Source: Gimesia benthica
Lineage (GTDB): Bacteria > Planctomycetota > Planctomycetia > Planctomycetales > Planctomycetaceae
NCBI RefSeq assembly: GCF_009720525.1
Contig: NZ_CP043930.1
Span: forward strand, 2,143,501-2,207,500
DNA: 64,000 nt
Reading direction: 5' to 3'
Positions within the stretch are counted from its first letter, which is position 1, and each line of letters begins with the position of its first letter. Below the pieces are notes generated by a model. It did no database searches and had not been told where the DNA came from. It was given only the letters and a program-made list of their open reading frames with translations. Shown one piece after another: positions 17,589-22,089 of the stretch. Made by a program: the position numbers and the translations under genes.

Positions 17589-17772
17589 GGGTGGGCTCGG
17601 ATGCAATCCGAGCCGAGCGTAGCGAGCAAGAGGTCTCAGCGAACGCGAACAGTCCAGAGAAAAGTCGCCCACCTCAACATTCAGAACATGAGGCACGCTT
17701 TCCCACAATAGAACGCGTGCCCCGCAACCTCCTGTTGTCTCCGACAACCTCGAATTACATTCGAGGCCACCC
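17589..17772 (+). repeat. REPIN-like 184-bp element, copy A
   Basis: A full copy of a dispersed element found five times between 17.6 and 22.1 kb, always in this orientation. It begins GGGTG followed by a hairpin (GGCTCGGAT, loop GCA, ATCCGAGCC). It ends with a second hairpin (CCTCGAAT, loop TAC, ATTCGAGG) followed by CCACCC, so its ends are inverted repeats of each other. Inside is an internal stem, TTGTC-TCC-GACAA. Open frames cross it on both strands but are not conserved as protein. Confidence 0.9.
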
Positions 17773-17796
17773 AACCAGGTTAAATAGAAATTCATC

Positions 17797-17927
17797 GGGT
17801 GGGCTCTAATGCAATCCGAGCCGAGCGCAGCGAGCAAGAGGTCCCAGTTTAAACCTGTAATTCAGGGCAAAGCTTCCTACTTCCCATACAGAAAGTGAGT
17901 TACCCCTCCTCAACAGAACTCGAACCA
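17797..17927 (+). repeat. Decayed and truncated copy of the same element
   Basis: It starts GGGTGGGCTCTAATGCAATC 24 bases after copy A and matches well through the AGCGAGCAAGAGGTC region. After that only scattered similarity continues (GGGCAAAGCTTCCTAC, then CTCAACAGAACTCGAACC) to about 17927, just before the purA stop codon. The 5' hairpin has lost pairing on one arm and the 3' hairpin is missing. The right end is approximate. Confidence 0.65.
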
Positions 17928-17932
17928 GCCGC

Positions 17933-19219
17933 CTACTTCAGCAGAATCGTCTGTTCCCGATCGGGTCCGACAGAAACAATCTCAACCGGCTTACCAATGA
18001 TATCTTCGATCGCCTTGATGTACGCGATCGCATTCTCAGGCAGATCTTCCATCTTGCGGATGCCGGTGATATCTTCTTTCCAGCCGGGAATCGAGCGATA
18101 TACTGGCTTGGCCTGCTCCAGATCCAGAATGTGGCTCGGGAAGTCGGTGACCTGCGTGCCGTTCACGTCGTAAGCTTCGCAGACCTTGAGTTCGTCCAGT
18201 CCGCTCAGCACGTCCAGCAGCATGACGGCAATGCAGTCGACGCCACTGATATTCGCCCCGTATCGGGTAGCGACAGCGTCAAACCACCCGCAACGCCGCG
18301 GACGTCCGGTGACAGTACCGTATTCATTCCCCACGTCGCGAATCCGCTGCCCGATTTCATCATGCAGCTCGGTCACGAAAGGACCGCCGCCCACGCGTGT
18401 CGTATAGGCTTTCACCACGCCGATCATCTTGCTGATGTAACGCTCGGAAACACCACTGCCGTTGTGAATCCCGCAGCCGGAACTGTTGGAAGAAGTCACA
18501 TACGGAAAGGTCCCGTGGTCAATATCCAGCAGGCTCCCCTGGGCTCCTTCGAACAGAATCTTCTTCTGCTCGGCAACCGCTTTCAGCAGATAAGCACTGG
18601 TATCGACGACGTGCGGCTTCAGAGTCTCGGCATAACCGCAATACTCTTCAAAGATCGCGTCGACGTTCAACGGCTCTGCTTCGGGATCGAGGGCCTGGAA
18701 AATCTTACTTTTATAAGCCACGATTTCTTCCAGACGAGCCCGGAAAAAGTCAGGACGCATCAGATCGCCCATCCGAATGGCATGGGTCCGGCTCGCTTTG
18801 TCGCGATAGCAGGTTCCGATGCCCCGCATGGTCGTGCCGATCGCGTTCTCTTTGCGGCTCTTTTCGAAAATGCTCTCTTCCTGCATATGATACGGGAAGA
18901 TCACGTGGGCCCGGTCACTGATCAACAGCCGACTCGGATCAATCGGCCCGTTCTGTTCGACGATCGAAGCCACTTCCTGCAGAAACGCCTTGGGATTGAT
19001 CACCACGCCGCCGGTAATAACGGAGGTGACATTCGGATTCAGCACCCCTGCCGGCAGCAGGGAGAGTTTATAGGTCTTGCCGTCAAATTTGACTGTGTGG
19101 CCTGCATTATTGCCCCCCAGGTAACGCACCACGATCTCGTGTTGCTCGGAGAGTAAGTCTACAATTTTGCCCTTGGCTTCATCGCCCCACTGTAACCCGA
19201 TTACCGACGTCGCTGACAC
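17933..19219 (-). CDS. purA: Adenylosuccinate synthase
   Basis: A 428-residue GTP-dependent enzyme that joins IMP and aspartate in AMP synthesis. The P-loop-like [14 protein letters not shown] opens the protein; the common Gly of DEGKGK is Ala here. Other signatures are [48 protein letters not shown] and the C-terminal RPRRCGWFD motif. Length is normal. The stop codon lies only a few bases from the decayed repeat copy. It is transcribed leftward, divergent from the response regulator gene. Confidence 0.97.
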
Positions 19220-19372
19220 AAAACTATCCCATTGCGTGATTTAAGAATAAACAGATAAAGACATATTGATCTCGGACCATCCCGAAACTGGCGCACGCCA
19301 CGCGCGCACCGGCCCATTTTATCGAACCGGCACCAGTTTGGGGAGCGCCACACGTCCGTTGGATCTTAATAA

Positions 19373-19402
19373 TTGGATTTTCGCCAGCGGGGGTGATATA
19401 AT
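19373..19402 (+). promoter_or_regulatory. Candidate sigma-70 promoter of the response regulator
   Basis: TTGGAT (19373-19378), an 18-base spacer and a consensus TATAAT (19397-19402), 54 bases upstream of the start codon. Confidence 0.5.
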
Positions 19403-19456
19403 ACCTTCTGCACACTTCCCCAGCGCGGGCCACACCAGGATTTAAACGCCAGGCTA

Positions 19457-19837
19457 ATGAACACTTCTCCTCAAAAACGTGTCCTCATCATCGACGATGA
19501 TGAGGGTCTTACAGAGCCTTTACAGCTGGCCATCGAAGCAGAAGGGTATGAGGTGCTCACCGCCCACGATGGCAATGAAGGCCTGATGAAAATCGAACGC
19601 GACGCCCCCGACCTGGTCCTCCTCGACCTGGTCATGCCCCGCCGCAGCGGATTTGCTGTCCTCGACAGCATCATCAACAACAAGCAGCGGGCTCCCAAAA
19701 TCGTCATGGTCACCGGTAACAGCGAACCCAAATACCGCGAACTCGCCCTCGACCGCGGCGTCGACCGCTTCATCCCCAAACCCTACCACATCGAAGACCT
19801 CGTACAGACAGTCAACGAACTGCTCAATGCAGAGTGA
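19457..19837 (+). CDS. Single-domain response regulator (CheY-like receiver)
   Basis: A 126-residue stand-alone receiver domain. It has the acidic triad at Asp13-Asp15 (VLIIDDDEG), the phosphoacceptor Asp57 (LVLLDLVMP), the switch Thr87 (MVTGNS) and Lys109 (FIPKPY), so phosphorylation competence looks intact. There is no output domain, so it probably acts by protein-protein contact or phosphorelay. No histidine kinase is adjacent. A REPIN-like element begins 22 bases after the stop codon and may serve as its transcript end. Confidence 0.93.
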   Translation: MNTSPQKRVLIIDDDEGLTEPLQLAIEAEGYEVLTAHDGNEGLMKIERDAPDLVLLDLVMPRRSGFAVLDSIINNKQRAPKIVMVTGNSEPKYRELALDRGVDRFIPKPYHIEDLVQTVNELLNAE

Positions 19838-19858
19838 TAAACTGCTCTCTGATAAACC

Positions 19859-20041
19859 GGGTGGGCTCGGATGCAATCCGAGCCGAGCAAAGCGAGCAAG
19901 AGGTCTCAGCGAAAGCGAACAGTTCAGAGCAAAGTCTCCTACCTCAACATTCGGAACGTGAGGCACGCCTTCCCGCAACAGAACGCGTCCCCCCAACCTC
20001 CTGTTGTCTCCGACAACCTCGAATTACATTCGAGGCCACCC
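19859..20041 (+). repeat. REPIN-like 183-bp element, copy B (3' flank of the RAYT gene)
   Basis: A full copy with the same 5' hairpin (GGCTCGGAT-GCA-ATCCGAGCC) and 3' hairpin (CCTCGAAT-TAC-ATTCGAGG, then CCACCC) as copy A. It is one base shorter, in the C-run before AACCTCC. Its right end overlaps the last codons of the RAYT gene, which is read on the opposite strand. Confidence 0.92.
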
Positions 20042-20536
20042 TACAGGAACCCCCACAGATTTACCCAGCACATAATAGCGAGCAGAACTCCAACTCCAGT
20101 CTGTAATCCTGTCCGCCAGCCCTTTCTTTACGGGATTCATATGCATGTAGGTTAGTTTCTCTTCTATCTTTTCTTCTGATTCAATCTCAAATGAATAATA
20201 GTGTTTTTGCCAGAGAGGATCCTCTTTTGAAAACATTTTTGCATACTGGCTCTGTTCAAGTAAAAACTGTTTGATCGAGCGACTGGAACTTCGTTTCCAG
20301 TCTCTCATGAAAGCACTGAGTTCACCGATCCTGTGAAACCAGACCAGGGCATGCACATGATCGGGCATAATCACGAAACCGACACAGATCGCCTCGTGCC
20401 GCATTAGTTCATGATTTAGTGCCCCCAAAAGACGACGTTTGGCACCATCATGATCGAGGTAAGTCCGATTTCCGTAACAGGAAAACGTAACGAAATGGAC
20501 GTATCGCCGATCATCAAACTGAGTTCGTTTGTTCAT
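20024..20536 (-). CDS. REP-associated tyrosine transposase (RAYT, IS200-like Y1 family)
   Basis: A 170-residue Y1 transposase-like protein. It has a VHFVTFSCYGNR start strand, the HUH-type metal site MPDHVHAL (His60, His62), and a candidate nucleophile Tyr130 in LTYMHMNPVKKGL, followed by WSWSSARYY, the usual order for RAYTs. It is single copy in the window and bracketed by repeat copies B and C. This matches the known arrangement in which a RAYT maintains REP/REPIN sequences. The codons for the last residues (GWPRM) and the TAA stop are formed by the terminal hairpin of copy B. The frame also offers GTG at 20542; neither start has a clear ribosome site. It looks intact, with no frameshift. 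Confidence 0.9.
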   Translation of the reverse strand: MNKRTQFDDRRYVHFVTFSCYGNRTYLDHDGAKRRLLGALNHELMRHEAICVGFVIMPDHVHALVWFHRIGELSAFMRDWKRSSSRSIKQFLLEQSQYAKMFSKEDPLWQKHYYSFEIESEEKIEEKLTYMHMNPVKKGLADRITDWSWSSARYYVLGKSVGVPVGWPRM

Positions 20537-20591
20537 GTTCACATATTAGCAAACAAAAGCATATCACCAACTTGATTATCGAAAATAGAAC

Positions 20592-20776
20592 GGGTGGGCT
20601 CGGATGTAATCCGAGCCGAGCAAAGCGAGCAAGAGGTCTCAGCGAAAGCGAACAGTTCAGAGCAAAGCCACCCACCTCAACATTCAACACGTGAGGCTCG
20701 CCCTCCCACAACAGAACGCGTCCCCCGCAACCTCCTGTTGTCTCACGACAACCCCGGATTACATCCGGGGTCACCC
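20592..20776 (+). repeat. REPIN-like 185-bp element, copy C (5' flank of the RAYT gene)
   Basis: A full copy ending about 90 bases before the GH43-like gene and lying about 55 bases upstream of the RAYT start. The 5' hairpin loop is GTA instead of GCA. The 3' hairpin is CCCCGGAT-TAC-ATCCGGGG, changed on both arms relative to copies A and B with pairing kept. The inner stem reads GTTGTC-TCAC-GACAAC. Confidence 0.92.
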
Positions 20777-20864
20777 TTCAAATAGTAGATCAGAACCAAG
20801 GCACCCGCTACCATTGAATCCAGACAACCAGCTACAAACCGCTCTACAAAGAAGAGACGCTCCC

Positions 20865-21881
20865 ATGAAACCGCAAACGCCCTGCATCCTGTTTCTCCTA
20901 CTTTGCTCTTTCCTCACCACGCTCCCCGCAGCAGAAAAACCAGATAACACCAACCAGATCTTCCTGCTCCCCTACTTCCTGGGAAACGGTGAAACCGGTG
21001 TCTACCTCGCCTTTAGTACCGATGGTCTGCGCTTCAACTGGCTCAACGAGGGGAAGGTCGTCATGCCCGCCCCGAAGTGGGGCGAAGAAAGCCTGACCCG
21101 CGATCCATCCATCGTCTACCACGACGGTAAGTTCCACATGGTCTGGACCACCAGCTGGAAGTCACGCAGCATTGGCTATTCCTCTTCAAAAGACCTGCTG
21201 CACTGGAGCGAACCCCGCAAAATCGTCGTCTGGCAGGCAAGCGACGGCGCAAAAAACACCTGGGCCCCCGAAATCCACTGGGATCCGGAACAGCGGGAAT
21301 ACCTGATCCTCTGGAGCACCACGCTGGATACAGAACTCAACGATCAGGACCAGAGCCAGGATCAGCACGGCCATGATCACCGCCCTTACGCCATCCGCAC
21401 CCGCGATTTCAAAACCTTCACGCAACCGAAACTCTTTTTCAGCCCCGCCCCCGAAATCAGCGTCATCGATCCTTTCATCGCCCACGATGATCGAAATACC
21501 AAAGACACTGCCGACGATCGCTGGGTCATGGTCATCAAAAACGAAATGCCGGCCGACCAGGGAGGCAAAAACTTAAGGCTCGTCTTCAGCAAACACATGC
21601 AGGGACCTTACGAGACCACGCTCGGACCGCCGATCGTCGGCGCAGGTACCTCAATTGTCAACACGATGGGCGAAGGACCTTCACTGTTCAAACACGACGG
21701 ACTCTGGTACCTCTACTGGGACGCCCCCGGCAGCCACTTCTCTTACTGTCTGGCCACAAGCCCCGACCTGCAGACCTGGACCAACCGCACGCCGGAAATG
21801 AAGCTCCCCGCCAAACAGATGCGCCACGGCACCGTCTTTTTCGCTCCGAAAGACGCTATCGGCTTTCCGCTGAAGAAGTAA
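20865..21881 (+). CDS. Exported GH43-like five-bladed propeller glycoside hydrolase
   Basis: A 338-residue secreted protein. It starts at ATG 20865 with a signal peptide (MKPQTPCILFLLLCSFLTTL then PAAEKP). The frame is open further upstream through repeat copy C, but that part is not coding. Propeller features of clan GH-F/J proteins are present: TRDPSIVYHDGKFHMVW with a candidate catalytic Asp, SSKDLLHWSEPR, TWAPEIHWDPEQREYL with a candidate Glu, and SVIDPFIAHDD. It probably acts on an arabinose-, xylose- or related sugar-containing glycan outside the cytoplasm, with the substrate unassigned. An Asp/His/Gln-rich insertion occurs near residues 160-175. Repeat copy D begins 24 bases after the stop codon. 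Confidence 0.82.
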   Translation: MKPQTPCILFLLLCSFLTTLPAAEKPDNTNQIFLLPYFLGNGETGVYLAFSTDGLRFNWLNEGKVVMPAPKWGEESLTRDPSIVYHDGKFHMVWTTSWKSRSIGYSSSKDLLHWSEPRKIVVWQASDGAKNTWAPEIHWDPEQREYLILWSTTLDTELNDQDQSQDQHGHDHRPYAIRTRDFKTFTQPKLFFSPAPEISVIDPFIAHDDRNTKDTADDRWVMVIKNEMPADQGGKNLRLVFSKHMQGPYETTLGPPIVGAGTSIVNTMGEGPSLFKHDGLWYLYWDAPGSHFSYCLATSPDLQTWTNRTPEMKLPAKQMRHGTVFFAPKDAIGFPLKK

Positions 21882-21904
21882 TTATCTGGCAAGAATAGAA
21901 GAAT

Positions 21905-22089
21905 GGGTGGGCTCGGATGCAATCCGAGCCGAGCGCAGCGAGCAGGAGGTCTCAGCGAAAGCAATCAGCCCAGAGCAAAGCCACCCACCTCAACATTCAG
22001 CACTTGAGGTACGCCCTCCCGCAACAGAACGCGTCCCCCACAACCTCCTGTTGTCTCACGACAACCTCGGATTACATCCGAGGCCACCC
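21905..22089 (+). repeat. REPIN-like 185-bp element, copy D
   Basis: A full copy between the convergent GH43-like and MoaD/ThiS-like genes, 23 bases from each stop codon. The 3' hairpin is CCTCGGAT-TAC-ATCCGAGG, intermediate between those of copies A/B and C, with pairing preserved. Its position suggests it can also act as a bidirectional transcript end. Confidence 0.92.

Follow-up and report, generated by a model that had tools for sequence, protein, structure and literature searches.

Paired hairpins and a probable REPIN-RAYT system beside purA in Gimesia benthica

What are the short repeats that lie around purA in the planctomycete Gimesia benthica, and what moves them? We addressed this in a stretch of 64,000 nucleotides (the window; contig NZ_CP043930.1, positions 2,143,501 to 2,207,500), part of a genome of 8.03 Mb in one contig that is denoted G000, with sister genomes labelled G001 onward. 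An original prediction had described four full copies and one decayed copy of an element of 183-185 bp and had proposed a family of REPINs, that is, paired repetitive extragenic palindromic (REP) sequences. All five were recovered where they had been placed, in one orientation on the forward strand: the full copies A (17589-17772; 184 bp), B (19859-20041; 183 bp), C (20592-20776; 185 bp) and D (21905-22089; 185 bp), and the decayed A′ (17797-17922), which retains only the left end and centre, adjoins the purA stop codon and is joined to copy A by a 24-bp linker (17773-17796). Between copies B and C lies a gene for a REP-associated tyrosine transposase (RAYT, or TnpA-REP; 20024-20542, reverse strand). 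We consider it highly probable that the repeats and the gene together form a REPIN-RAYT system (a REPtron); by analogy with known systems, the RAYT is most likely what moves the REPINs.

Hairpin ends and a variable centre

Full copies start with GGGTGG and end with CCACCC (A, B and D) or TCACCC (C), with two hairpins just inside these ends. The unit, ∼185 bp long, is formed by two REP hairpins in inverted orientation; the foot is GGGTGG in most cases, the loop has 3 nt and the stem 8-9 bp. The stems quoted at the outset were verified: the 5′ stem is GGCTCGGAT/ATCCGAGCC in copies A-D, and the 3′ stem is CCTCGAAT/ATTCGAGG in A and B, CCTCGGAT/ATCCGAGG in D and CCCCGGAT/ATCCGGGG in C. The canonical foot tetranucleotide of REPs is given as GT[AG]G in PMC6006769, and GGGTGG fits it because the GTGG inside is one of its forms; a GT[AG]G foot beside a hairpin is thus present here, as expected of a REPtron. 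Folded as single-stranded DNA, copy C reached -36.1 kcal/mol against a shuffle mean of -22.1 (z -4.3), a value equalled by 0/200 shuffles.

We collected 104 full elements from the fetched DNA of nine genomes, each with two inverted REPs, and aligned 41 of them. Invariant columns all fell at positions ≤43 or ≥142 of copy C. The unusually long conserved centre of ∼130 bp that had been proposed was not borne out: only ∼43 nt per end are conserved, each end comprising a REP hairpin and a second motif, and the centre differs between loci, being conserved only within a locus or subfamily. The consensus fold has a REP hairpin at each end, a second hairpin on the right, and two stems, one terminal and one (the inner stem) that connects the ends. 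In copy C, all on the forward strand, the left REP hairpin occupies 20597-20617 (9-bp stem and 3-nt loop, after GGGTG), the inner arms 20633-20637 and 20730-20734 pair with each other, the second right hairpin (TTGTC/GACAA) lies at 20738-20751, and the inverted right REP hairpin (8 bp) lies at 20752-20770. A 2-bp stem in the left end, also proposed by the consensus fold, was excluded from the 30 pairs kept. For these pairs, 98.4% of cells pair, compared with 89.4% in shuffles and 25%-51% when the alignment was slid, and three of five pairing measures exceeded all shuffles.

Covariation was judged against a null in which columns without pairing were simulated along the tree of the 104 copies, at a 5% family-wise threshold. 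Twelve of 15,225 column pairs passed, of which eight were stem pairs (three in the left REP, four in the right REP and one in the second right hairpin); the remaining four, none of them a base pair, join the base of the right REP to the second right hairpin. This first null under-simulated change (∼1,240-1,400 parsimony steps vs. 1,699 observed), and the analysis was rerun with rates matched or higher, or with a tree from the centre only. Between 12 and 17 pairs then passed and the leading pairs were unchanged; higher rates added, among others, a further pair of the left REP and two or more pairs in the centre that fall in no named stem. Compensatory change in the terminal hairpins, as first read from the window, therefore stands in both stems, and the alignment supports the view that hairpin stems are kept by compensatory change, with selection acting on the folded hairpins.

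The inner arm has three pairs with six to nine two-sided changes each, and its covariation was not above the phylogenetic null on the 104-copy tree. Copies carry one or the other of two linked types of the arm (GGT/ACC or AACTG/CAGTT), apart from some that are mixed, and we treat its pairing as subfamily linkage and not as a covarying stem. A candidate second hairpin of the left end, with tandem G.A pairs (CGAGC-NNN-GCGAG), lies in a stretch that hardly varies and is beyond the reach of covariation.

Compensatory change suits RNA as much as single-stranded DNA, and copies B and D begin 21 and 23 bp past the ends of upstream open reading frames (ORFs). The repeats could on these grounds be terminators or mRNA-stabilising structures at gene 3′ ends, with the RNA hairpin, not the DNA, under selection. 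We regard this as very unlikely. Rfam models gave no match within the elements up to an E of 1 (a single weak match, 19040-19086, lies outside them), so membership of a listed RNA family was rejected; the foot is kept at both ends of the element; and a RAYT is embedded in the cluster. By simple ORF calls, which place some elements within a called ORF, elements between co-directional genes showed no clear preference of orientation (31 vs. 21). A transcription-oriented element was accordingly rejected as the main cause.

The transposase gene between copies B and C

The original prediction had only inferred a link to a RAYT and had overlooked the gene, which is now observed inside the cluster. 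It is intact, encoding 172 amino acids from a GTG at 20542 or 170 from an ATG at 20536, and copy C lies 49 bp upstream of the GTG start. The protein scores 112.7 bits against the NCBIfam equivalog for REP-associated tyrosine transposases (cut-off 80) and matches Pfam Y1_Tnp (PF01797). A profile of this RAYT and six relatives had TnpA-REP structure 4er8 as its best match in PDB (7.4e-17); a single-sequence search of PDB gave no match at 0.001. The predicted structure (mean predicted local distance difference test 83.6, predicted template modelling score 0.79) likewise retrieved 4er8 best (E 3.0e-9, template modelling scores 0.68/0.70), which we take to be the E. coli TnpA-REP. Its motifs are DHVH, WQ and YMHMNP, and the HUH histidines, the tryptophan and the tyrosine are invariant across 20 aligned sequences. 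The HUH motif, catalytic tyrosine, equivalog score and fold that mark a TnpA-REP or RAYT are all present, as is the full-length RAYT with flanking REPs that marks a REPtron.

Four intact copies of the gene, from four species, gave proportions of nonsynonymous differences (pN) of 0.12-0.18 in six pairwise comparisons. Those of synonymous differences (pS) were 0.73-0.79 and nearly saturated. Because pN is far below pS, the RAYT protein is, as judged from these sequences, under purifying selection. Here and in G008, the RAYT coding sequence enters the right-end REP of copy B and its stop codon reaches the REP loop; the last codons in this genome, inside the REP, are GGG TGG CCT CGA ATG TAA (window 20024-20041). 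The gene of G001, G005 and G009 ends shortly before the REP; comparison with G005 and G009 suggests that the present end arose by a past deletion between two similar motifs.

The Y1 transposase fold, together with a gene that runs into a REP here and in G008, would also be expected of a complete IS200/IS605 insertion sequence with these repeats as its ends, the extra copies being deletion derivatives. That account seems to us hardly credible: the RAYT of this locus is single copy in the genome, it scores 30.1 bits against the NCBIfam IS200 equivalog (cut-off 55), and in all five genomes having the gene it stays in one neighbourhood beside purA. Membership of IS200/IS605 was rejected on the single copy and the 30.1 of 55 bits. 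The genome has only two other Y1_Tnp genes, elsewhere (G000 6217721 and 3955592), and no REP of this REPIN family occurs in the stretches read around them.

Spread through the genome and history at purA

Beyond the window, 142 REP ends were found in the genome with at most one mismatch, compared with 0 for a reversed control pattern, and its sampled part held 25 full elements and 68 solo ends. The repeat is thus multi-copy, mostly extragenic by simple ORF calls and accompanied by singlets as remnants, as REPINs are, and is far from being limited to the five places in the window. Feet of the 115 sampled ends of this genome were GTGG in 81, GTAG in 8, GTAA in 16, GTGA in 5 and others in 5. In three places of the sampled part (G000:C1:298592-298708, 301640-301756 and 4698072-4698196), a left and a right REP stand in direct order, ∼90-98 bp apart.

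The 17 genomes of the genus carried 5-196 REPs each, with reversed controls of 0 in 15 genomes and 1 and 2 in the other two. Exact REP matches among 150 genomes of the family were found in 10 of 11 genus members and in 15 of 139 others, with one match each; across the order, 82 of 170 genomes had a RAYT-like protein at 1e-30. By these matches, RAYT proteins are widespread, whereas this REP family is almost restricted to the genus. Inverted REP pairs in many copies, covarying stems and an embedded RAYT agree with the planctomycete REPIN family first proposed.

Close copies of the RAYT (71%-79% identity) occur in G001, G005 and G008, together with a frameshifted copy in G009. The five genomes with the gene, one of them broken, hold 67-196 REPs. 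A close RAYT is lacking in 12 genus members, and eight of these hold 5-46 REPs (two of the eight genomes are only 74%-76% complete), among them G003, G004 and G012, which have no RAYT match at all, carry 5, 10 and 11 REPs, and group on the same side of a neighbouring gene's midpoint-rooted tree. More distant RAYTs, of 29%-38% identity, were seen elsewhere in G001, G002, G005, G007, G008, G009 and G010.

Comparing the purA locus with 12 sister genomes, we found REP ends of the family in nine (a single one in G007); in the other three, the strict pattern found none. A RAYT lies between REPINs in four of the 12, in one with the gene broken, and A′ relics align at the same place in six (G002, G005, G006, G008, G010 and G014). 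The REPIN-RAYT-REPIN cassette of G008 lies across purA from this position, at a site occupied in G002 by a single REPIN whose outer flanks are almost identical. DNA identity between G005 and this genome is 96% in purA and 71% in the RAYT, and the REPINs next to the G005 RAYT have the alternative inner stem; for these reasons, RAYT and REPINs seem to have been exchanged together in this one case. G007 carries a different RAYT, ∼31% identical, in the corresponding intergenic neighbourhood, between the upstream gene and purA. Between the B-site REPIN and the next gene, where the RAYT would be, G006 and G014 have other sequence of roughly similar length, possibly a gene, in which no similarity to a RAYT was detected.

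No relationship is apparent among the 25-bp flanks of copies A-D, and the four copies are therefore probably separate insertions. Neither a fixed target nor a target-site duplication was obvious across 69 flank pairs; the left flank is rich in A from -10 to -2, except at -4, and has a pyrimidine at -1 in 52 of 69. Between species, 77 flank comparisons gave 48 filled sites, 24 others and five empty ones, all five in tandem arrays in which units of a REPIN plus a 25-27 bp linker (the linker length between tandem copies in sister genomes) differ. The empty-site variation foreseen for this family thus took two forms, gain and loss of tandem units and a RAYT cassette that some genomes have and others lack; a clean single insertion was not among them. 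What changes between species is whole tandem units, gained or lost, and the RAYT cassette with its directly repeated REPINs, which is present, absent or across purA; homologous recombination between direct REPIN repeats could account for the loss or movement of the cassette and for the change in units.

Full copies also cluster along the genome: 10 of 24 adjacent gaps were below 15 kb, whereas 10,000 random sets averaged 1.1 such gaps and never exceeded 6, in a scan of fetched stretches only, which may favour clusters. The densest cluster seen (G000, 1.894-1.914 Mb) has nine left ends in one orientation and no Y1 transposase beside it, with corresponding loci in G002, G005, G006, G009 and G014.

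Several of our results weigh against a REPtron that moves its elements. None of the 77 flank comparisons showed a clean insertion paired with an intact empty site. On the 104-copy tree, the labels of three loci need five changes vs. 40 for species labels (77 rows, leaving out 27 copies at other loci); elements appear to follow locus and not species, and recent genome-wide jumping is therefore not evident. REP number does not simply track the gene, which REPs seem to outlive: G002, G006, G010 and G014 carry 117-187 REPs although, like the eight genus members above, they lack a close RAYT. The genome's other large REPIN clusters have no Y1 transposase beside them. Finally, two of the five pairing measures lay within the shuffles: pairs with two-sided changes (123/500 shuffles as high) and pair types (483/500).

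The sorting by locus and the REPs kept in those four relatives would suit elements that are now inert, having spread long ago, with clusters made by gene duplication, tandem-unit slippage and homologous recombination, and hairpins kept for a host role such as gene-end structure. So would empty sites that are tandem-unit changes only, and, by simple ORF calls, an excess of elements at convergent over divergent gene pairs (21 vs. 10, of 89 elements). Some copies in the 1.89-1.91 Mb cluster have flanks that are alike, which points to segmental duplication and suggests duplication of a gene plus its REPIN. We nevertheless judge inert elements to be unlikely: the unrelated flanks of copies A-D, the purifying selection on the RAYT and the lack of a clear orientation preference between co-directional genes all speak against them. 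We claim no host function for the REPINs.

Orientation, replication and known systems

How a REPtron might spread its REPINs can be outlined from TnpA-REP biochemistry. A single-stranded DNA phase, mainly on the lagging-strand template, would let REPs fold; the RAYT would bind a folded REP through foot and hairpin and cut beside it; and it would then move the REP doublet in trans to another single-stranded site. The asymmetric left and right ends make the orientation of these REPINs readable, unlike that of a symmetric REPIN. Neighbours 300 bp-15 kb apart shared one orientation in 51 of 51 pairs from all fetched DNA, many of them orthologous and the pairs not independent, and in 10 of 10 pairs in this genome alone.

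In a test made after the clusters were seen, the left end lay on the C-rich strand at 27 of 32 loci of this genome (17/19 with negative and 10/13 with positive GC skew; p 2e-4). The link held by ranks (p 1.3e-5) and with gene direction allowed for (p 3e-7). Loci with tied orientation were dropped (2/34 in G000 and 1/20 in G001), and elements were masked by 230 bp and then by 1,000 bp, loci with under 3,000 unmasked bases being dropped only with the latter. With 1 kb masked around every REP, 26 of 30 loci in G000 still agreed. In the main test, 22 of 22 G000 loci agreed at an absolute skew of at least 0.05, a cut chosen afterwards. Agreement among sister genomes was 9/9 in G006 and 3/3 in G009, both with loci orthologous to G000, and was not significant in G001 (12/19) and G008 (8/13); at the same cut it was 8/8, 3/3, 6/9 and 7/8, respectively. 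Full elements alone agreed in 10 of 14 cases in G000 (p 0.11). For solo right ends, the strand was the C-rich one at 10 of 11 G000 loci and at only two of 10 in G001, so that pattern is not general.

We treat the skew result as a lead, in which the C-rich strand is assumed to mark fork direction. If skew does mark replication direction, the pattern is possibly, and we say this tentatively, a genomic signature of REPINs entering the single-stranded lagging-strand template at the fork. Such a lead fits insertion at the fork because the IS608 and ISDra2 transposases insert into the lagging-strand template, according to PMC6006769.

This kind of system is already known, and the family itself is a new planctomycete member. 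The Pseudomonas fluorescens SBW25 REPINs (Bertels and Rainey 2011; PMC3116915) share inverted REP doublets, RAYT neighbours, compensatory changes, tandem REPIN clusters with flanks, and singlets viewed as remnants. They differ in spacing, with 71 bp between the first residues of the two 16-mers of the GI doublet compared with ∼185 bp here, and the present family has unlike left and right ends that each carry a second motif. Group 3 REPtrons of Stenotrophomonas (Sm) and Marinomonas (Mb) (Corneloup 2021; PMC8266576) have a short perfect palindrome, as here; the Sm REP has 16 nt interrupted by 3 nt directly after GTAG, and Marinomonas REPs also concentrate near the gene, whereas the foot here is mostly GTGG.

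The TnpA-REP classes of Quentin 2018 (PMC6006769) share the GT[AG]G foot, the HUH, WQ and tyrosine motifs, and gene-flanking REPs. Their class 3 is mainly from Planctomycetes, Acidobacteria and Proteobacteria and has a CnGA foot and a YV[VI][AENY]EQ motif; YMHMNP and a mostly GTGG foot place the present RAYT outside it. Bacterial interspersed mosaic elements of E. coli, as described in PMC6006769 and PMC8266576, share two REP types in inverse orientation and tandem copies, and differ in having bulged stems where those here are perfect; a second right-end hairpin is found here. Compensatory changes, tandem REPIN clusters and REPs concentrated near a RAYT are described for other REPINs in PMC3116915 and PMC8266576, and REPs in Planctomycetes are mentioned in PMC3733652. 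Among the matches listed from the open-licence literature, no title or abstract opening describes this REPIN family.

The genus offers a natural series at one syntenic locus, in which the RAYT is intact, broken, a deeply diverged allele, across a gene or absent. Together with a readable orientation, this series would allow the roles of transposase, replication strand and recombination to be told apart, through comparative genomics and simple assays at the bench. The spread of REPINs and REPs is called unresolved or poorly understood in PMC8266576 and PMC3116915; a signature of entry at the fork, if true, would make that route of dissemination directly testable.

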